This document shows positions 44 to 35,294 of a stretch of 36,318 nt of DNA, in pieces. Source of the stretch: a virus; the IMG/VR virus record IMGVR_UViG_3300046718_000122, positions 1 to 36,318 of that record; one strand, given 5' to 3'. Within the stretch, counting starts at the first letter, position 1, and the number at the start of each line of letters is the position of its first letter. The notes beneath the pieces were generated by a model, which worked only from the letters and a program-made list of their open reading frames with translations, had not been told where the DNA came from and searched no databases. The position numbers were made by a program, and so were the translations under genes.

Positions 44-529
44 ATGGCACGACGCAATCCACATGTAACGCCCACCGCACTCAAGATTCTCAAGTCAGAC
101 CGCAGGACGCAGAGCGCACACGGCAAATTGACAGCTGACATGGAACTGCCAGCGGTGCCGGTGAACGCATACCCCACGTGGCCGCGTCAATTTCAGATGG
201 AAGCGTTGCGCATGTGGAAGCGGTTGATGCCTCATTTGCAAAAATACGGGCTGGTCACGGATGCCGATCTGTCAGCGTTTGCACGCTATTGTCAAGACGC
301 GGGCGAAGTGAAATGGTTACAATCGGTGCTCGACAAAGAAGGCTACACACAACGCAGTAATGCAAACGGTATGGTAGCGTCGTGCTACTGGTCGATGCGC
401 AACAAGATACAGGACCGGATGCTAAAGACGGAAGTTGAATTTGGATTTACGCCTGCATCGCGCAGTCGCGTGAAAGTGTCACACGGTGCGGACGATGCGC
501 CGAAGAAGCAAGCATGGGCGGGCCTGTGA
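44..529 (+). CDS. terS: Terminase small subunit, P27-like
   Basis: A 161-residue protein placed directly before the large terminase, as small subunits usually are. The N-terminus is basic (MARRNPHVTPTALKILKSDR), followed by a helical segment around residues 45-90 with the pattern LMPHLQKYGLVTDADLSAFARYC that is typical of P27-family (Terminase_4) small terminases. In the family this subunit binds the packaging-start site on phage DNA and loads the large subunit. The ATG at 44 has a TAAGGA ribosome site 5 bases upstream. The 3' end overlaps the large subunit by 16 bases, which suggests translational coupling. Function rests on family resemblance and context. Confidence 0.85.
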   Translation: MARRNPHVTPTALKILKSDRRTQSAHGKLTADMELPAVPVNAYPTWPRQFQMEALRMWKRLMPHLQKYGLVTDADLSAFARYCQDAGEVKWLQSVLDKEGYTQRSNANGMVASCYWSMRNKIQDRMLKTEVEFGFTPASRSRVKVSHGADDAPKKQAWAGL

Positions 530-2232
530 AGTTCGATGTAGACAAACATCCGCACGTGCACGCGGCACACGCGTATGCACACGATGTCGTCAAAGGGCGC
601 ATTGATGTCTGCCTGTGGGTAAAACTTGCGTGTCAGCGCCAGCTAGACGACCTAGTGCGCGCGCAGGCAGGCGTGGCGTCGTTCCCATTCACGTTTGATT
701 TGGCGTTAGCAGAGCGCTATTGCAAGTTCATCGAATTGCTGCCACACGTGAAAGGCAAGAAGTGGGCAGGTACGCCGATCAAGCTTGAACCGTGGCAATG
801 CTTCACGATGGTGTGCGTGTTTGGTTGGATTAACAAGATCACCGGCTATCGTCGCTTCAAGACTGTGTACGAAGAAGTGCCGCGCAAGAACGCGAAGACG
901 ACGAAGCTTGCAGGCATCGGTCTTGCTCTGTTGACTATCGACGAAGAGCCGGGTGCCGAAATCTACAGCGCAGCGACGACGCGTGATCAAGCAAAAATCT
1001 GCTTTGACACAGCAAACACGATGGCGCAGAAAGAGCCGCATTTCCGCAAGCGGTTTGGTGTCGAATGCCTGACGCACTCCATCTTCGTGCGCAACACCAA
1101 CAGCAAGTTTAATGCGGTGAGCGCAGACGCCGACACGCTGGACGGCCTAAACGTCAGCGGTGGACTGATCGACGAGTTGCACGCGCACAAGAAGCGCGAT
1201 GTGTGGGACGTAATGGAAACGGCAACCGGGTCACGCACGCAGCCGTTGATTTGGGCGATTACCACGGCGGGCAGCAATCGTGCGGGCATCTGCTACGAGC
1301 AGCGCACGTATGCGACCAAGCTGCTGCAGCGCATCGTTGAAGATAATTCATACTTCGCCATCATTTACACGATTGATGAAGGCGACGTATGGACTGACCC
1401 GGCAGTGTGGAAGAAAGCGAATCCGAATTACGGCATCAGCGTTGATATTGATGACCTGACGCGTAAGGCAGTAAAAGCAATGGCGATGCCTAGCGCGCAA
1501 AATAACTTCCTGACCAAGCACCTTAACGTGTGGGTCAATGCCGACACATCGTGGATGGACATGTTGGCGTACGATTCGTGTCTCGATGAAACGATGACGC
1601 TCGAGCAGTTCGTTAAGCAGGAAGCGATCGTTGCGCTCGACCTTGCATCACGTGTGGACGTTGCAGCCAAGATGCTGCTGTTCACGCAGCAGATCGAAGG
1701 ACAGACGCACTACTACGCATTCGGTCGTTACTATTTGCCCGAATCAGTGTTGGAGAGCGATGACCCGCACGATTTCTACGCTGGCGCAGCGAAGAATGGC
1801 GGCAATCTGGTGCTGACGCCGGGTGATGTGATTGACTTCGAGTTCATCGAAAACGATCTGGACAAGGACAACGCCAAGTTCCTCATTCGCGAAGTCGCGT
1901 ACGACCCGTTCCAAGCGACGCAGTTTGCCACACGCGCGGCTGCGCGCGGCTACAACATGATCGAAGTGCGCCCGCTGGTGCTGAACTTCAGTGAAGCAAT
2001 GAAGGAACTGGAAGCGGCGGTGCTGCAGAAGCGGTTTCACCACGACGGCGACAAGATTTTGCAATGGATGTTTAGCAACGTCGTGTGTCACCGCGACATC
2101 AAAGACAACGTGTACCCACGAAAGGAACGCGACGAGAACAAAATCGATGGCGTCGTTGCATTGATCATTGGAATAAACCGCGTGATGGCTGCACGCGAAG
2201 TTGAAAAGGAACCGGGCATGGTGCTGCTATGA
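514..2232 (+). CDS. terL: Terminase large subunit (packaging ATPase/nuclease)
   Basis: A 572-residue HK97/P27-partner type large terminase, the ATP-driven motor that pumps DNA into the prohead and cuts concatemers. A deviant Walker A (PRKNAKTT) lies at about residues 123-130 and the Walker B/catalytic Glu is GGLIDELH at about 216-223. The C-terminal half carries the RNase H-like nuclease, with Asp residues in IVALDLASRVDVA, VAYDPFQA and the late ENKIDGVVAL segment. The length is normal for the family. The start at 514 lies inside the small-subunit gene, and the stop overlaps the portal start by 4 bases (ATGA). The arrangement is a standard packaging module. Confidence 0.95.
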   Translation: MGGPVKFDVDKHPHVHAAHAYAHDVVKGRIDVCLWVKLACQRQLDDLVRAQAGVASFPFTFDLALAERYCKFIELLPHVKGKKWAGTPIKLEPWQCFTMVCVFGWINKITGYRRFKTVYEEVPRKNAKTTKLAGIGLALLTIDEEPGAEIYSAATTRDQAKICFDTANTMAQKEPHFRKRFGVECLTHSIFVRNTNSKFNAVSADADTLDGLNVSGGLIDELHAHKKRDVWDVMETATGSRTQPLIWAITTAGSNRAGICYEQRTYATKLLQRIVEDNSYFAIIYTIDEGDVWTDPAVWKKANPNYGISVDIDDLTRKAVKAMAMPSAQNNFLTKHLNVWVNADTSWMDMLAYDSCLDETMTLEQFVKQEAIVALDLASRVDVAAKMLLFTQQIEGQTHYYAFGRYYLPESVLESDDPHDFYAGAAKNGGNLVLTPGDVIDFEFIENDLDKDNAKFLIREVAYDPFQATQFATRAAARGYNMIEVRPLVLNFSEAMKELEAAVLQKRFHHDGDKILQWMFSNVVCHRDIKDNVYPRKERDENKIDGVVALIIGINRVMAAREVEKEPGMVLL

Positions 2233-28480: not shown

Positions 28481-28509
28481 ATTATACCACAGCGACGCAG
28501 CGAACGCAA
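28481..28509 (-). promoter_or_regulatory. Early promoter P3 (extended -10)
   Basis: On the - strand: -35 TTGCGT (28504-28509), 17-base spacer, TGG plus perfect -10 TATAAT (28481-28486). It lies between the end of the Z-genome operon and the small early genes. It shares the extended -10 with P1 and P2 but not their 20-base upstream block. Confidence 0.7.
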
Positions 28510-28536: not shown

Positions 28537-28968
28537 TTACGACGACAGACGGAACGCTAACGCCTGCGGGTCGATGCGACCGCGCCAGAAACCGTAGCCG
28601 TACCAACACCACATCAACTTGTTCCATGCGCCGATGTTGTCAATCTGATCATGACGAATCAGTAAGTAATCGTACGAGTGCTGCGCACCACCGGCACCAA
28701 TGCGCGCCAACACGAAGCTGCGCCCGCCGTGCTGCTTTAGCCAATCACGCTGGCCATTAGTAAGCTTCGGTATCGTCAACGGCGCATCCTTTGCAACGGG
28801 CCAGTGATCAACGACTTTCAGTTCGATGTGGCCCGTTTGCCCGTTGCACGAGTATGCAACGTCAGGATGATTAGGCGCTGCCTTGTTCTCTACGCGTGTT
28901 GCGTGCTGCCAGTGACCGTGCATCACGCGTGACACGTAATCCCACAGCGCCTGCTCTGGCTTTTTCAC
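28537..28968 (-). CDS. PD-(D/E)XK nuclease
   Basis: A 143-residue protein with the PD-(D/E)XK nuclease core: NHPDVAY (P35-D36) and GHIELKV (E49, K51) separated by 12 residues, preceded by a helix with RVENKAA and followed by LTNGQRDWLKQHGGRSFVLA. This layout is that of small phage VRR-NUC/HJC-like endonucleases. It is the last gene of the Z-genome operon; its GTG start overlaps the previous stop (GTGA). It may cut host DNA or resolve recombination intermediates. Confidence 0.78.
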   Translation of the reverse strand: MKKPEQALWDYVSRVMHGHWQHATRVENKAAPNHPDVAYSCNGQTGHIELKVVDHWPVAKDAPLTIPKLTNGQRDWLKQHGGRSFVLARIGAGGAQHSYDYLLIRHDQIDNIGAWNKLMWCWYGYGFWRGRIDPQALAFRLSS

Positions 28969-29432
28969 GGCTCGCCGCCTTCGCTGTCGGGTGCCGGTGG
29001 CTGCGGGTTCAGCACTTCCACCGCACCGCCCATGCTGCGCACGAATTGACGATCAGCGTGCTTGCTGTCGGTCGTCTCCAGCAGGCTGCAATCGCTGTTG
29101 TACTCGTCCAGCACCAACGCACGCAGCAACAGCAGGTACACGATGGCGTCCAGAATGCGACCTTCGATCGGCTCGCTTGCGTCGTCGTCGATGTAAACGC
29201 TGGTGCCGCGTCTGATCGCTTCTGCACAGAATGCCTTGATGCTGCGTACGTGCTTGTCGAATGGCACCGCCCACACCGCAAATGGCGACAGGCCAAGGTC
29301 GATTGCGTTCTGCTTGAAGTTGTCTAACTGGTCATCGCTGCCGTGCGTGTATTCGGCACCCTTCGTTGCCGTGATGCCGTTGACTTCGGCAAACGTGCGG
29401 TCCACCAGTGCCTGCCATTCCGTGCGTGTCAT
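28965..29432 (-). CDS. MazG/DUF1599-like helical protein
   Basis: A 155-residue mostly helical protein. It contains KGAEYTHGSDDQLDNFKQNA (about residues 24-43), then FDKHVRSIKAF and EPIEGRILDAIVYLLLLRAL. The Tyr-x-x-x-x-D..NF, K-x-x-R-I/K, and E..I.D...Y.LLLR pattern is that of the DUF1599-like, all-alpha NTP pyrophosphohydrolase-like phage proteins associated with nucleotide metabolism. It is co-transcribed with the purZ cassette, with overlap at both ends. It could be a further dNTP-controlling enzyme, but the catalytic residues cannot be assigned securely by eye. Confidence 0.6.
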   Translation of the reverse strand: MTRTEWQALVDRTFAEVNGITATKGAEYTHGSDDQLDNFKQNAIDLGLSPFAVWAVPFDKHVRSIKAFCAEAIRRGTSVYIDDDASEPIEGRILDAIVYLLLLRALVLDEYNSDCSLLETTDSKHADRQFVRSMGGAVEVLNPQPPAPDSEGGEP

Positions 29433-29686
29433 GATTTGTCTCCCTTGTTGATGTTGCTGATCGTTAACGGGTCGCCCTCAGCAGGCAACTTGTTTAGGTC
29501 GTGATTGATTTGCCATGCGACGACTTCGGCAAACGTCCAATTGTTCTTCTGTATCGACACCGCAATTCGCTTGATGAAGCAGCGGTTTTGCCAGAAGATA
29601 ACCTGCGGTTCCGGTCCTTTAAACATCGGCACCTGTACTGCAAGCACCGTGCCCTTGTTGAAATCAAGCAGTTCGATGTGTTTCAT
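29429..29686 (-). CDS. Small protein of the Z-genome operon
   Basis: An 85-residue protein: beta strands at the start (MKHIELLDFNKGTVLAVQVP, then PQVIFWQNRCFIKR), a helix WTFAEVVAWQINHDL, and a charged end. I do not recognise a family. The ATG at 29686 overlaps the datZ-like stop (ATGA), and GGAG lies 10 bases upstream; the frame is open farther upstream only inside datZ. Co-translation with DatZ suggests a related job. Confidence 0.62.
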   Translation of the reverse strand: MKHIELLDFNKGTVLAVQVPMFKGPEPQVIFWQNRCFIKRIAVSIQKNNWTFAEVVAWQINHDLNKLPAEGDPLTISNINKGDKS

Positions 29687-30276
29687 CGTGAAGTCTCCAC
29701 TGTGCCCTGCCGCGTTATCAGCGTATCGGTTAGTACGCTCACCACCACTGACCAATCATACTGTGGCCACTGGTCCTGTGCGTCACGGATTCGCTGATGC
29801 AGCCTGCGGTCAACGATGCGTACCGTCTCCAGCGCGTATGCGCCCACGCCTTCAATTGTCAGGAACCGGATTACTTCAATCTCTTCTGCGATCTTAACGA
29901 CCGCGTACGGTAAGCCTTGCTCATGCGTGCGCGCCCACTGGTCCATTACCGCCCAATTGTCGGACAGTTCAGCTTCGGCGCTGTGCATTACATCGCCAAT
30001 CGATACCTTGGTCTTGTTGGCCGTTGCAAATAGCAGCTTTGTTGGTGTCGGCGGGTCGCCCAACACGCCTTCTGGCGTATCGTGCATCATCGCCCACGAA
30101 ATCATCGCATACTTGGCGTCACTGTCCATTTGAATGTTCAGCCGCCCGCACAGTTCGTGCACGATCACCATTACCGACCACGAGTGTTCTGCAACCGTCT
30201 GCTCACGCATCGTGCGCACCGTGTGCCAGCGCTTAACGTGCTGACAGCGTAACACTTCATACAGCGTCATTTCCAT
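29683..30276 (-). CDS. datZ: DatZ-like dATP triphosphohydrolase (HD domain)
   Basis: A 197-residue HD-domain phosphohydrolase of the YfbR/DatZ type. The order is W17-H18, TVAEHSWSV (H31), MMHDTPEG (H65-D66) and GDPPTPTK (D74). The usual last metal-ligand Asp in the K-x-A-D motif seems to be Glu here (VKIAEEIEVI, E131). In Z-genome phages DatZ strips dATP to deoxyadenosine, so that the polymerase meets dZTP instead. The ATG at 30276 has GGAGAGGAAG upstream and lies inside mazZ (20-base overlap). It stands in a purZ-mazZ-datZ row, which separates it from ordinary YfbR. The D-to-E change should be checked. Confidence 0.85.
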   Translation of the reverse strand: MEMTLYEVLRCQHVKRWHTVRTMREQTVAEHSWSVMVIVHELCGRLNIQMDSDAKYAMISWAMMHDTPEGVLGDPPTPTKLLFATANKTKVSIGDVMHSAEAELSDNWAVMDQWARTHEQGLPYAVVKIAEEIEVIRFLTIEGVGAYALETVRIVDRRLHQRIRDAQDQWPQYDWSVVVSVLTDTLITRQGTVETSR

Positions 30277-30592
30277 GTGTGTCTTCCTCTCCGTTATGTT
30301 GCATGGTGCCGGTTGCGGTGTGGTGCCATTTGCGCGCACGATTAATTGCCATCTTCTCTTCAACTGCGCGCCCGATGTCGCGTATGCCGTGCATATGCGC
30401 AAGGTCTACCAGCATGATGAACACATCAGCCCATTCACCCGCTGCGTGCGGCTTGCGCACCACTTCACCGATTTCCTCATACAGCTTGAGGAACGCCATC
30501 CACGGTTGCCGATGCGGAAAAGCTGCATCCGCCCATTGCACAACCTGCGTCTGCATTTCGGTGATGCTGTCGTTGCTAGACACCAGCTTCAT
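30257..30592 (-). CDS. mazZ: MazZ-like dGTP pyrophosphohydrolase
   Basis: A 111-residue MazG-fold protein. KLYEEIGEVV carries the metal-binding E39, E40, E43, and GEWADVFIMLVDLA carries E53 and D56, as in MazG-like/DUF550 enzymes. The region from HMHGIRDIGRAVEEKMAINR to RKW is the typical end. In the Z pathway MazZ hydrolyses dGTP (and GTP) to dGMP, the substrate for PurZ. The ATG overlaps the purZ stop (ATGA), and AGGAG is in the end of purZ. The specificity for dGTP is inferred from the cassette. Confidence 0.87.
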   Translation of the reverse strand: MKLVSSNDSITEMQTQVVQWADAAFPHRQPWMAFLKLYEEIGEVVRKPHAAGEWADVFIMLVDLAHMHGIRDIGRAVEEKMAINRARKWHHTATGTMQHNGEEDTHGNDAV

Positions 30593-31707
30593 CGCATATA
30601 CTCCTCTGTTTGACTGCAGATGCCCGCGTCACCAATCATGCGGCTTAACGCTTCCAATGATGCAGGTATTGCGCCCATGTCGTGCACGTTGTGATGCTGT
30701 GGTCCGTCACCGAGCCAGCGCACGCGCGCATTCGAGCCTTGCAGGTGCGGCTCGAGCCATTGCACAAACCGTGCGATGTCGCCGCGCGTTCTGCAGTAAT
30801 TGACGAAATTGAGGAATATGTCGTTGATTCCGTTCTGCCACACCGCCTCACGCATCTGCGTCACGCTGAATGTTGCAATGCGTCGCTGCAGCTTCGTCAC
30901 CGTCGTCAGTTCCGGTGCGCGCCCGATTTCCACCCAATCAATCTCCTTCGAATCATCGTACCACGGACCGGACCAGCCTACCATTCTGCCGCCGTCGTCG
31001 TAGCGATTTGCAACGCGTATCGGGTAAGTGCGCATCGTGCCGACGACACGCGTTATCCAATCGCACGGTATGCCCGCGTCTGCGATCGTTTGCGCGGTCG
31101 TTACGTCGCGCGATGTGCAGTACGGATACATACCGTGATAGATCGACAGTGAGTAACCTTGCGCGCCTTCAACTTGTATGACCTTGGCGCGCTCCAACGC
31201 TTCGCAGTATTCCGCCCGCGTCACCACGTAGCGGTGCAGTGGGGTGCCGCGTAGCGCATCGCGTGCAATGTTGGAGTTGTCCGGATTGCGCCGTATGCGG
31301 TGAATCATTGCAGCACCAACGCCCTTTTTCGTGCTGCCGATCTTGGTCATCGGGCCTGCTTCTTCGTTGCGATGCTGCTGCGTCACCACGGCGGCAGACG
31401 GATGAATCAGTATTGCTGCTTGGCGCACGTATTCGTCACAGTTGATCAACTCCATCATCAGCGCTTGCGGGTCGATCACGCTACCCGGCCCGATCAGCAC
31501 CTGCCGCAGTGCCGGTGACACAATGCCGTTGGCCAACTGCGTGTGCACGAACTTTCGCCCTTCGTCATCAATGTACGTGTGGCCTGCATTCGGTGCCCAT
31601 GCCGTCACCACCGTGTCTGGCTGATCACGCTTGGCCAGATACCCAGCAATCAGTCCCTTGCCGGTACTGCCGAATTGCATGTCAATGATTACCGTTACCT
31701 TCCTCAT
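30589..31707 (-). CDS. purZ: PurZ, 2-aminoadenylosuccinate synthetase
   Basis: A 372-residue member of the PurA family with the phage-specific PurZ signature. The P-loop/active-site segment reads QFGSTGKG (residues 11-18): Ser14 stands where PurA has the catalytic Asp (QWGDEGKG). NAGHT with His43 is kept, as are IGSTKKGVGAAM (where PurA has IGTTGRGIGPA) and PELTTVTKLQRRIATFS near the C-terminus. PurZ joins dGMP and aspartate, which is then cleaved (host PurB) to the 2-aminoadenine nucleotide dZMP. The ATG at 31707 has AAGGAG and overlaps the polymerase stop (ATGA). PurZ is shorter than PurA (about 430), as expected. Confidence 0.95.
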   Translation of the reverse strand: MRKVTVIIDMQFGSTGKGLIAGYLAKRDQPDTVVTAWAPNAGHTYIDDEGRKFVHTQLANGIVSPALRQVLIGPGSVIDPQALMMELINCDEYVRQAAILIHPSAAVVTQQHRNEEAGPMTKIGSTKKGVGAAMIHRIRRNPDNSNIARDALRGTPLHRYVVTRAEYCEALERAKVIQVEGAQGYSLSIYHGMYPYCTSRDVTTAQTIADAGIPCDWITRVVGTMRTYPIRVANRYDDGGRMVGWSGPWYDDSKEIDWVEIGRAPELTTVTKLQRRIATFSVTQMREAVWQNGINDIFLNFVNYCRTRGDIARFVQWLEPHLQGSNARVRWLGDGPQHHNVHDMGAIPASLEALSRMIGDAGICSQTEEYMR

Positions 31708-33635
31708 TTGTTCTCCTTGTACTGCGTCGCTTCGTCGCTGCACGCAATCCACCACGTATCACCGAATCCGCCGTCTGCACGGATTGGTGTCTTGCACTTA
31801 ATCGGGCACTCTACGCCATCAAACGTCTGCAGAATGTGTTGCAAGTCTCTGTCATAGCGCCTGTCGCGATCACTGCGTGTGCAGGACAGATCGACTTCGT
31901 CATGCACACTGAGCAGCAATCGCAGATCACCGTCGCGCACTTCACCGCTGTTGATGTACTCGTCAATCTCGATTAACTTTTGCTTCATGCTGTCGGCGCT
32001 GCTGCCTTGGAAGATCAGTCCACCCGCCTTGTGCGCACCGATTCCCTTAGGAAAGCGCAGATGCCGACCCATCACGGTTTTGACATAAGTGCGCGTGCGT
32101 GCTACTGCGGCTGCGTCGTCCAGCAGCTTACCGATACCGGGCACCGCTGCGTGGTACTGCTCAAAGATGCTGACTGCTTCCGGACCGGGCAGCAGGTATT
32201 CCTTGCCGCGCGAGTTCGTCTCTGTCGTGTATGGCAAGCCGATTTCCTGTGCCATGCGCCCTTGCCCCATGCCAAACACTAGGCCAAGGTCAATCTGCTT
32301 CGCGTTCGGGTCGCCCGGATGTCGCGCGCTACGCGGCAGCTTTGTCAAATCAGCAACCATTTGATGAAAGTCGGTGTTTTCATCGGCTGCATACAGTGCG
32401 TTTATCTTCTTATCTTTCAAGTAATGCGCAAACCAACGGAACTCGAATTGATTCCAATCGAAGCACAGCCAGCGGTCGTCACCGTGCGGCAGGAACAGAC
32501 CGCGCACCTGTGACGCCATCTGCCGGTTGCGCTTGTGAATTTGGTGCAGGGCCGGGTCGTTCACGCTCAGTCGCCCGGTCACGGTGCCAAGGTCGTTTTC
32601 GCTGCGACACTGATTGAAGTTGCAGTGCACCGTGTGCACGCCGTTGCCGTTGCTGCGTGCGTTGCCGATGATGTGACCGCGCAGGAACGTGCCCGCCATC
32701 TTAATCAATGCTCGCTGCTCGATGATTAGTGCTGCGCGCGGGTCGGTCATCTTGCGCATCGTCGGGCTGTCGATCGATGGATTGCCTGCTTCCGTTTCTT
32801 CTGCACGCGTGCCGTCACTCAGGTGCCACACGCCGTCGCCGTCCTTCTCTGGCTTGAACAGATCGCGTATCTGCTTGGCGCTGTTGATGTTGATGTCATC
32901 ATTGCCGGTCATGCGCTGTATCTTTTTGTAGTTGTCTTCGATGTCCTTATTGGTGACAACCAGCAGCTTTTCTGCCGCAGGTACGTTAACACGGATGCCG
33001 ACACGCTCCATGCGCACCAGCACCGGCAGCAGTCGCTGCTCCAAGCGCACGACATCAGCCAACCCACAGCGTGCGGATGATTCTTCTCTGTCAATTGCGT
33101 CCTGCCGCGCAATCTCGTCCTGTTGCCATTGATGCAGCAGCAGCGTCGTGTGTACGTCCTGCCGCGCGTATTTCGACACCCAAGCAGTCGGTGCCTTAAC
33201 AAGATTGTTGACTTGTGCGTGCTGCGTAGGCTTGCCGCCGAAGCGCGCAGCCAACTTTTCCCATATTTCAGTGTCCTTGCCCACGCCCACATACTGCTTG
33301 CCGAGCGTGTCCAGATCGTAAGCAAACAGCGTTTCGTCGATCAGCGCTGCATTGACCATCGTGCATACCACACGACCATCGGGCAGGTTCACGCCTGCTT
33401 CGCGCAGAAAATGAATGTCGAACTTGGCATTGTGCGCGACCCAATACGGCACCCGCTGCACCTGCTTGCGCAGCCACTCCAGCACCTGTGGCAGATCGCG
33501 TGCGTCCCAATACGCCGTTTTCTTGTCGGGCGTTGCAATCGCGATGCCAAATATCTTGTCACGGTGCCACAGCAGCCCGGTCGTCTCCGTGTCGATCACG
33601 ACGTACGGATAGCGCGACAAGTCGGGAAAAATCAT
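31704..33635 (-). CDS. Family A DNA polymerase (DpoZ-like)
   Basis: A 643-residue polymerase with 3'-5' exonuclease. Exonuclease: VIDTETTGL (D15, E17), AHNAKFDIHFL, and YARQDVHTTLLL. Polymerase: motif A CFDWNQFEFRW, motif B with Lys in AKQIDLGLVFGMGQG, motif C LLLSVHDEVDL. DpoZ, a family A polymerase that favours Z over A, is found beside purZ in phiVC8-type phages. Direct overlap with purZ (ATGA) makes this the likely identity. The ATG at 33635 overlaps the previous stop. Preference for dZTP is inferred from the neighbourhood. Confidence 0.88.
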   Translation of the reverse strand: MIFPDLSRYPYVVIDTETTGLLWHRDKIFGIAIATPDKKTAYWDARDLPQVLEWLRKQVQRVPYWVAHNAKFDIHFLREAGVNLPDGRVVCTMVNAALIDETLFAYDLDTLGKQYVGVGKDTEIWEKLAARFGGKPTQHAQVNNLVKAPTAWVSKYARQDVHTTLLLHQWQQDEIARQDAIDREESSARCGLADVVRLEQRLLPVLVRMERVGIRVNVPAAEKLLVVTNKDIEDNYKKIQRMTGNDDININSAKQIRDLFKPEKDGDGVWHLSDGTRAEETEAGNPSIDSPTMRKMTDPRAALIIEQRALIKMAGTFLRGHIIGNARSNGNGVHTVHCNFNQCRSENDLGTVTGRLSVNDPALHQIHKRNRQMASQVRGLFLPHGDDRWLCFDWNQFEFRWFAHYLKDKKINALYAADENTDFHQMVADLTKLPRSARHPGDPNAKQIDLGLVFGMGQGRMAQEIGLPYTTETNSRGKEYLLPGPEAVSIFEQYHAAVPGIGKLLDDAAAVARTRTYVKTVMGRHLRFPKGIGAHKAGGLIFQGSSADSMKQKLIEIDEYINSGEVRDGDLRLLLSVHDEVDLSCTRSDRDRRYDRDLQHILQTFDGVECPIKCKTPIRADGGFGDTWWIACSDEATQYKENK

Positions 33636-33853
33636 CGCTTGCCGCCCCCATATTGACGCAGCATGCCTGCACGCATCTGCGCGCCAAACCATGCTGTTTT
33701 CGTTTCCTCTATTGTTGATGCAGAGATTTTCAATGCTGCTATAAGCACTTCATCCGAGCAGGACACGTGTTCCCCAACCAGCTTAAGGATCGTGCCCGCA
33801 ATGGCGTTAATTTCTAACGGATTAGCGTGTTCAATTCTCGATTCTTCGGTCAT
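33632..33853 (-). CDS. Small helical protein before the polymerase
   Basis: A 73-residue helical protein: EINAIAGTILKLVGEHVSCS, then DEVLIAALKISASTIEETKT and FGAQMRAGMLRQYGGGKR. AGAGGGA lies 6 bases before the ATG; the stop overlaps the polymerase start (ATGA). No recognised family. It lies between helicase and polymerase, so it may be a replication accessory protein. Confidence 0.65.
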   Translation of the reverse strand: MTEESRIEHANPLEINAIAGTILKLVGEHVSCSDEVLIAALKISASTIEETKTAWFGAQMRAGMLRQYGGGKR

Positions 33854-33866
33854 GTTGGTCCCTCTT

Positions 33867-35294
33867 TTACAAATCGTACCCGTTGTCGCCGTGCACGATG
33901 TCCAGCCGATGGCGTGCGCGCGTTATGCCGACGTAGAACACGCGCGCTTCGCTGTCAGGGTCGTCCACCATGCCGCTCACCACGCGTTGTGTCAGCGCCG
34001 TGTCGATTACAACGCGGTCCGCTTCACGCCCTTTGCTGGCGTGTATTGTCATCAGCTTTAGGTTAGGTTTTACGTCAACATCAACGCTGCTGTAATAGCG
34101 TTCCTTCCATGGCGTGACGTTCACCGCGTCCACATCGCGCCGTGCGGCAAGCGCTGCAAGGTCTTTGCTTGCAATCAGCTTCTTGGTGCGGTCGTCGCCT
34201 TCCATCGCCAGCACCGCAAGCTCGTCCTTGCTAACTGAGCCAGTGTCACGCAGCGTGTGATGGGCGCGCAAGGCTCGAGCAGTGCGATTCTGCAACGGAC
34301 CGGGAAAACCGCCCTCAGTCAGATACGGAATGCACAGATTCATCAAATGTCGCTCTACTTCCTTTTTGCGCGCACCGGTACGGACGAGTATTAGCGTGCT
34401 GTCGCCGTTCAAGTGCACATCGTTGTGGCTCGCGTGTTCACGCAGGGTGCCGGGTTCGTCGCGCGGCGCATAAACTTTCTCAACACGATTACTGACACGG
34501 TGAATCACGCTTTGCGCGAGCGTGTGCACGGTGCGCGGTATGCGGTGCGACTGCGGCAGCACCAACCGCTCTGCCTTGTGCAGCTGTTCAAACTCCACCA
34601 TACCATGCGGATTCGCACCGCCCCACACGTAGATTGCTTGGTCATCGTCGCCCGCAATGTGCACTTCCTCAATCGCCCACTGCAGCAGCGTGTTAATCAC
34701 CTGCCATTGCAGCGGTGACAGGTCTTGTGCTTCATCGACCAGCAGCACCCGCGCGCCGTGTGGCCTTGGGTGCGTGACGTAGCGGCGCAACATGTCGTTA
34801 AAGTCGATCATGCCCTTCTTGTGCTTCCACGCTTCGTAGCGCTCAACGAAGAATTCGTATTGCTTCCATGACCCGGTGCACTGCGCGCGGTCGAACACTG
34901 CGTGCTGATCAGCAAACGTCACTATGGCGAGATTGTAAATACCAAGGTACTCGTCGCCCACTTCTACTTGCTCGCTGTCATCGATGGTGCCGCCGCGCAT
35001 CGGCACCCCGATCGACTGTGCAAACTCGCGCATACGTGCGTGATCAATGACCATGCCGCGCGACAATTCCAGCAAGCGGAAGCACAGGCTGTGAATCGTG
35101 CTTACCTTGTCACTGTTTTTGAGTCCAAGTCGCTCTAACGCCTCTGCTGCAGCTGCTTTGGTGTGTGACAGAAACCCGATGTCCTCTGCTGCGTAGCCGC
35201 GCGCTCTCAGGTCGTCAATGCGGCGCATTAGTTCGGTGGTCTTGCCGGTGCCGGGTGAACCGTATACGGCAAACGCCTTTAGTCGTTGCTTCAT
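33867..35294 (-). CDS. UvrD-like SF1 DNA helicase
   Basis: A 475-residue superfamily 1 helicase. Motifs in order: I GSPGTGKTT (about 12-20), Ia FLSHTKAAAAEAL, II LLVDEAQDLSPLQW (about 196-209), III HIAGDDDQAIYVWGG (225-239), IV PQSHRIP, V MTIHASKGREAD, VI VFYVGITRARH (near 455). It is shorter than UvrD/Rep (about 670-720), with reduced 1B/2B subdomains, as in compact phage helicases. ATG overlaps the previous stop (ATGA), with GGAG upstream. It is likely to unwind DNA during replication or recombination. Confidence 0.93.
   Translation of the reverse strand: MKQRLKAFAVYGSPGTGKTTELMRRIDDLRARGYAAEDIGFLSHTKAAAAEALERLGLKNSDKVSTIHSLCFRLLELSRGMVIDHARMREFAQSIGVPMRGGTIDDSEQVEVGDEYLGIYNLAIVTFADQHAVFDRAQCTGSWKQYEFFVERYEAWKHKKGMIDFNDMLRRYVTHPRPHGARVLLVDEAQDLSPLQWQVINTLLQWAIEEVHIAGDDDQAIYVWGGANPHGMVEFEQLHKAERLVLPQSHRIPRTVHTLAQSVIHRVSNRVEKVYAPRDEPGTLREHASHNDVHLNGDSTLILVRTGARKKEVERHLMNLCIPYLTEGGFPGPLQNRTARALRAHHTLRDTGSVSKDELAVLAMEGDDRTKKLIASKDLAALAARRDVDAVNVTPWKERYYSSVDVDVKPNLKLMTIHASKGREADRVVIDTALTQRVVSGMVDDPDSEARVFYVGITRARHRLDIVHGDNGYDL

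Follow-up and report, generated by a model that had tools for sequence, protein, structure and literature searches.

The question raised by this locus is whether an uncultivated tailed phage carries DNA in which 2-aminoadenine (Z) takes the place of adenine, and how complete its gene set for making such DNA is. The initial annotation had claimed that a polymerase gene, purZ, mazZ and datZ form one overlapping operon here and make up the full set for this replacement. We addressed this claim in the viral record IMGVR_UViG_3300046718_000122, which was analysed in its entirety (36,318 bases, referred to below as the window) and which may be incomplete, as a fragment of a phage genome. We consider it very probable that the locus is a Z-DNA cassette, encoding the enzymes and the pathway for a genome with Z in place of A.

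Layout of the coupled minus-strand genes

The structural genes of the window lie on the plus strand, where the terminase gene is followed by portal, protease, major head protein and tail genes, and the replication and nucleotide genes lie on the minus strand (Table 1). On that strand, dpoZ, purZ, mazZ and datZ are consecutive from 33635 to 29683, with overlaps of ATGA, ATGA and 20 nt, and Shine-Dalgarno-like stretches are found upstream of purZ, mazZ and datZ. The coordinates and the junctions read from the sequence therefore agree with the earlier description of four consecutive, overlapping genes. The limits drawn for the cassette were right for these four genes, but the coupled run, as read from the sequence, reaches beyond them in both directions and spans 33853 to 28537. 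The gene order pol-(...)-purZ-mazZ-datZ is the same as in known Z phages.

Table 1. Coordinates of the terminase gene, the coupled run and the adjacent helicase gene in the window.
Feature	Coordinates	Strand	Remarks
Terminase gene	44-2232	+	
UvrD/PcrA-like helicase	33867-35294	-	Pfam UvrD-helicase, 97.5 bits; phrog_1967
73-aa ORF	33632-33853	-	Directly upstream of dpoZ, overlapping it via ATGA
dpoZ	31704-33635	-	Family A DNA polymerase with 3'-5' exonuclease, 643 aa, phiVC8-like
purZ	30589-31707	-	2-aminoadenylosuccinate synthetase, 372 aa; start within the ATGA at the dpoZ end (31704-31707)
mazZ	30257-30592	-	Unfused DUF550 (MazZ-1 type) dGTP pyrophosphohydrolase, 111 aa; start within the ATGA at the purZ end (30589-30592)
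datZ	29683-30276	-	HD-domain dATP triphosphohydrolase, divergent, 197 aa; start 20 nt before the mazZ end
85-aa ORF	29429-29686	-	ATGA coupling to datZ (29683-29686)
155-aa gene	28965-29432	-	phrog_6802 (fam155); ATGA overlap with the 85-aa ORF (29429-29432)
143-aa gene	28537-28968	-	phrog_2165; GTGA overlap with the 155-aa gene (28965-28968)

The outer members of the run are less easily placed in families. The 73-aa ORF had no family match above cut-off, and for the 85-aa ORF neither tblastn against 50,697 phage records nor Pfam gave a match. The 143-aa product matched its family (listed as DNA helicase) at E = 1e-20, and HMM matches placed relatives of it downstream of datZ in four known Z phages (L002, L003, L005 and L006). 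At the DNA level, no match to the window was found among phage records, and searches with single-protein and family patterns gave no relatives in bacterial genomes. A TTGCGT-17-TATAAT element with TG before the second hexamer was spotted by eye upstream of the next minus-strand gene (minus strand, 28481-28509), and it scores below the promoter-scan threshold. Between 20400 and 28500, frames occur on both strands and family matches are almost absent; the ORFs scanned included none recognisable as an integrase or repressor.

Synthetase, pyrophosphohydrolase and polymerase

The synthetase scored 374.7 bits against the NCBIfam model amino_Aden_PurZ (NF038379; cut-off 300), and its best solved relative was S-2L PurZ (7odx; E = 1e-89). 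It also matched the Pfam adenylosuccinate synthetase family, which favours reading the enzyme as an ordinary PurA for adenine supply. This reading has almost nothing left to it and is refuted by the sequence, as the score against TIGR00184 purA was only 125 bits (cut-off 396), the neighbouring genes encode DpoZ, MazZ and DatZ, and Ser14 of GSTGKG, to which the initial annotation had correctly pointed, replaces Asp13 of the E. coli PurA motif GDEGKG. The dGMP pocket, whose residues have assigned roles (PMC8342488), is intact (G22, S23, N49, A50, T132, Q190, V241 and the T273-T276 loop, in S-2L numbering). In a tree of 71 sequences, in which E. coli PurA was the sole PurA and stood on a long branch, the window's protein grouped within PurZ, apart from PurA and from the separate PurZ0 clade (SH-aLRT 99), which is the outcome expected of a PurZ in the phylogeny that had been named as a check. 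A close tie to S-2L, suspected from shared PurZ motifs, was not upheld, as the protein sits loosely with uncultivated viruses and S-2L on a weakly supported branch (SH-aLRT 81). Its nearest relative in the tree comparison was 61% identical, and since a pattern search found at least 391 PurZ relatives in IMG/VR, this kind of enzyme is common.

MazZ matched the Pfam family dATP-dGTP_PPHyd (PF04447; 38 bits, cut-off 23), and S-2L MazZ was its sole PDB match (7ody; E = 7e-16). All of the metal ligands are kept (Glu40, Glu43, Glu53 and Asp56, equivalent to E35, E38, E50 and D53), as are the catalytic Arg87 (R83) and the guanine-specifying Ile59 and Asp63 (I56 and D60). The conserved ligands and I56/D60 equivalents therefore place the protein, which is also unfused, in the MazZ-1 type.

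The polymerase scored 692.5 bits against the NCBIfam model phage_DpoZ_1 (NF038380; cut-off 500), with phiVC8 DpoZ as its best solved relative (7pbk; E = 2.8e-114). Its Phe454 corresponds to the F459 steric-gate change, Phe at this gate being the one change common to both DpoZ clades (PMC8599892), and Leu450 and Gly539 are the equivalents of L455 and G548. The exonuclease residues Asp15, Glu17 and Asp73 (D26, E28 and D85) are present, and R440 and the HD pair of motif C are retained. In exonuclease helix E2, Gln138 and Val142 occupy the positions of R161 and M165, where R or K and M, I or A are reported as well conserved, not defining (PMC8599892); because an R161A/M165A mutant retained Z preference (PMC8599892), these two residues leave membership in DpoZ unaffected.

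The identities of these enzymes, the order and coupling of their genes and the residues that they carry are read directly from the window, and the catalytic steps proposed here are each taken from characterised relatives (PMC8342488, PMC8065100, PMC8599892, PMC12884076). MazZ would cut dGTP to dGMP, which PurZ would join to aspartate, with ATP or dATP, to give dSMP; host enzymes, which the completion of dZTP requires (PMC8342488, PMC12884076), would carry the path on to dZTP. DatZ would remove dATP, and DpoZ would favour dZTP over dATP for insertion opposite T, a proposed preference by which the genome would come to have Z in place of A. In E. coli, a datZ-mazZ-purZ triad put Z into the DNA (PMC8342488). 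The curated scores, the solved Z-phage relatives, Ser14 of PurZ and its grouping in the tree together make Z DNA likely in this phage, and we infer that Z is present in the virion.

The divergent active site of DatZ

Curated models, solved relatives and active-site residues supported the earlier view that PurZ, MazZ, DatZ and the polymerase all belong to Z-phage families. As for the claim of a full set, three members (DpoZ, PurZ and MazZ) are certain, whereas DatZ, with its unique residue changes, is less so. This protein matched PHROG 7076 (dATP triphosphohydrolase; E = 1.2e-29) and the Pfam family YfbR-like (PF12917; 48 bits, cut-off 25.9), and its best PDB match was S-2L DatZ (6zpa; E = 6e-11). 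In S-2L numbering, R19, W20, H34, H66, D67, E70, D75, K81 and K116 are kept, and these include the metal-A ligands H34, H66 and D67. The remaining metal-A ligand, Asp119, is replaced by Glu131, a conservative change, whereas all 118 others in a comparison of 119 have Asp at this position; likewise, Thr19 replaces the base-selecting Ile22, where the 118 others have I, M, L or V. In S-2L DatZ, D119 belongs to the metal A site and I22 excludes the 2-amino group of Z, and the I22A mutant was a weaker dATPase that showed a trace of dZTPase activity (PMC8065100). Because Glu131 and Thr19 are unique among the 119, both the activity and the selectivity of this protein are uncertain, and we have filed it as a DatZ homologue whose activity is in question. 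Each of the two changes is one base from a codon found in relatives (Asp and Met, respectively), which leaves some room for an assembly error. Real divergence is instead favoured by the fact that DatZ has diverged further than the other three proteins, with 22-30% identity to its counterparts in cultured Z phages.

These changes bear on how far adenine would be replaced. A weak or relaxed DatZ would leave dATP in the pool, in which case substitution by Z would be partial and discrimination would fall to DpoZ and perhaps to another dATP-removing protein, such as the 155-aa protein. Such partial substitution would fit the two unique residues, the behaviour of the S-2L I22A mutant and the divergence of DatZ relative to PurZ, which ranks third highest among 74 loci. 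We nevertheless regard it as unlikely, in view of the retention of every other DatZ catalytic residue that was checked, the ability of Glu still to bind metal and the signature residues kept in DpoZ. A genome in which Z replaces A is the reading that we prefer.

Related Z clusters, the 155-aa family and the phage backbone

Among the closest known systems are the cassettes of the SH-Ab 15497, Kokobel2 and PMBT28 type, whose DpoZ is likewise of model NF038380, with helicase, DpoZ, PurZ, MazZ and DatZ in identical order, PurZ 50-52% and DpoZ 41-43% identical, and the helicase gene preceding dpoZ as in the SH-Ab 15497-like Z phages (L004-L006). Unlike this type, the window has pol and purZ adjacent with nothing between them, an unfused MazZ without DUF5664 in place of a DUF5664-DUF550 protein, a 155-aa gene downstream of datZ and a different terminase. 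Cyanophage S-2L (purZ, mazZ, datZ) shares the unfused MazZ-1 and has a PurZ that is 47% identical, but it has a PrimPol and no DpoZ (PMC8065100), and no relative of the 155-aa gene. The phiVC8/ZP6 type shares the DpoZ and PurZ families and a downstream datZ, but has MazZ-2 in place of the DUF550 MazZ-1 and an additional large gene (annotated as integrase or primase) between pol and purZ. The PurZ0 phages (Arthrobacter phage Wayne and its kin) likewise have a PurZ homologue and a family A polymerase for Z DNA, but DutZ/DmtZ replace DatZ/MazZ (PMC12884076) and their synthetases form the separate PurZ0 clade. IMG/VR also holds a group of Z-cluster viruses (L118-L145) with purZ, a DUF550 mazZ, datZ and a 155-aa family gene, in which no DpoZ match was found within the fetched flank; as three of them (L129, L133 and L140) group with S-2L PurZ (support 100), Z viruses of the S-2L kind that have no DpoZ close by may be common.

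The 155-aa protein belongs to phrog_6802 (function not assigned; E = 4.5e-14), here called fam155, and had no Pfam match. A search of IMG/VR with the family alignment gave 73 loci, of which 40 matched purZ or datZ in the flanking sequence fetched (at most 8 kb), a share that is inflated by the drawing of the seeds from Z loci and that includes among the 73 nine of the seeds' own contigs. PurZ carriers number only some hundreds among the 2.9 million IMG/VR contigs. At 80% identity, the family forms 25 Z-linked clusters, including that of the window, and 19 unlinked ones. It is not exclusive to Z phages, 15 unlinked carriers being without PurZ over the whole record; it was found in none of 16 cultured PurZ/PurZ0 phages, and one Microcystis phage has a member. 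When the presence of fam155 was placed on the PurZ tree, its carriers proved scattered and 11 changes were needed, no fewer than 4 of which are required by well-supported branches. The idea that its carriers have a faster-evolving DatZ was rejected (P = 0.97). The family thus recurs beside the Z set in many uncultivated viruses, without earlier description as part of that set.

In one IMG/VR locus (L150:7686-8708), a single open frame encodes a fam155 domain and then a DUF550 MazZ domain, which mirrors the DUF5664-DUF550 protein of SH-Ab 15497 with the first domain exchanged. None of 29 fam155 records, made up of the window and 28 further ones, had DUF5664 (PF18909), which did occur in 14 of 40 Z viruses picked because fam155 was not seen near their purZ (Fisher P = 1.7e-4, a value that ignores shared ancestry); only some of these 40 records were checked for the family from end to end. 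On the PurZ tree, DUF5664 clusters mainly around SH-Ab, with further occurrences elsewhere. The fusion and the failure to find fam155 together with PF18909 suggest that fam155 may substitute for DUF5664, enzymes of the DUF5664-1 kind being known to hydrolyse dATP and dGTP (PMC12884076).

Homology of the 155-aa protein to DUF5664 itself was rejected (hhalign probability 0.1%). Two AlphaFold models were made (pLDDT 74 and 83.5), neither of which had a significant PDB fold match. The model with pLDDT 83.5 predicted a fold of mainly four helices, and the weak viral matches of the first, poorer model were to Nmad ('nucleotide modification associated domain') proteins, at a best E of 0.15-0.36 and a probability of 0.90-0.99. 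The residues K24, Y28, N38, F39, K60, H61, I89, R92, D95 and Y99 are invariant in the family. It is quite possible, though somewhat short of an even prospect, that fam155 is a component of the Z cluster that replaces DUF5664, and it would then probably act as a helical dNTP pyrophosphohydrolase or as a MazZ partner that clears dATP/dGTP. Two further loci were observed: in L025:10545-11672, a 375-aa frame has the fam155 domain at its C-terminal end and begins with a part that, judged by eye, resembles a DNA adenine methyltransferase (motifs GGKFRQG and DPPYAN), and in a 307-kb phage record (L144:7977-14624), fam155 and a DUF550 gene are neighbours and PurZ is weakly matched about 5 kb away.

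The nearest cultured relatives of the large terminase are those of Marinobacter phage AS1 (56%) and Burkholderia phage BgVeeders33 (49%), both of which are without PurZ. This terminase lineage was found in none of 11 cultured Z phages searched and in 2 of 43 uncultivated Z viruses (at 45% and 27%), whose records may be fragments, so that the negatives among them are not firm. Judged by its terminase, the cassette sits in a backbone different from those of cultured Z phages, and this difference in distribution suggests that the cassette has passed from one phage lineage to another. A backbone from a different lineage, together with the two unusual DatZ residues, would also be compatible with a mosaic genome in which the cassette is decaying or has been repurposed and the phage no longer makes Z DNA. 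We consider this very improbable, given that all four frames are open, that they are tightly coupled and have Shine-Dalgarno-like sites, and that the pocket residues of PurZ and MazZ are intact, and we retain the reading of a Z-DNA cassette.

The four-gene Z set was already known, and what the window adds to it is the linked 155-aa gene, the DatZ variant and the different backbone. The fam155 gene is a testable candidate for a new gene of Z metabolism, and the natural DatZ variant at the positions of Ile22 and Asp119 offers a test of what determines selectivity against dZTP. The phage itself represents one more lineage with a predicted Z genome, consistent with spread of the cassette by exchange.
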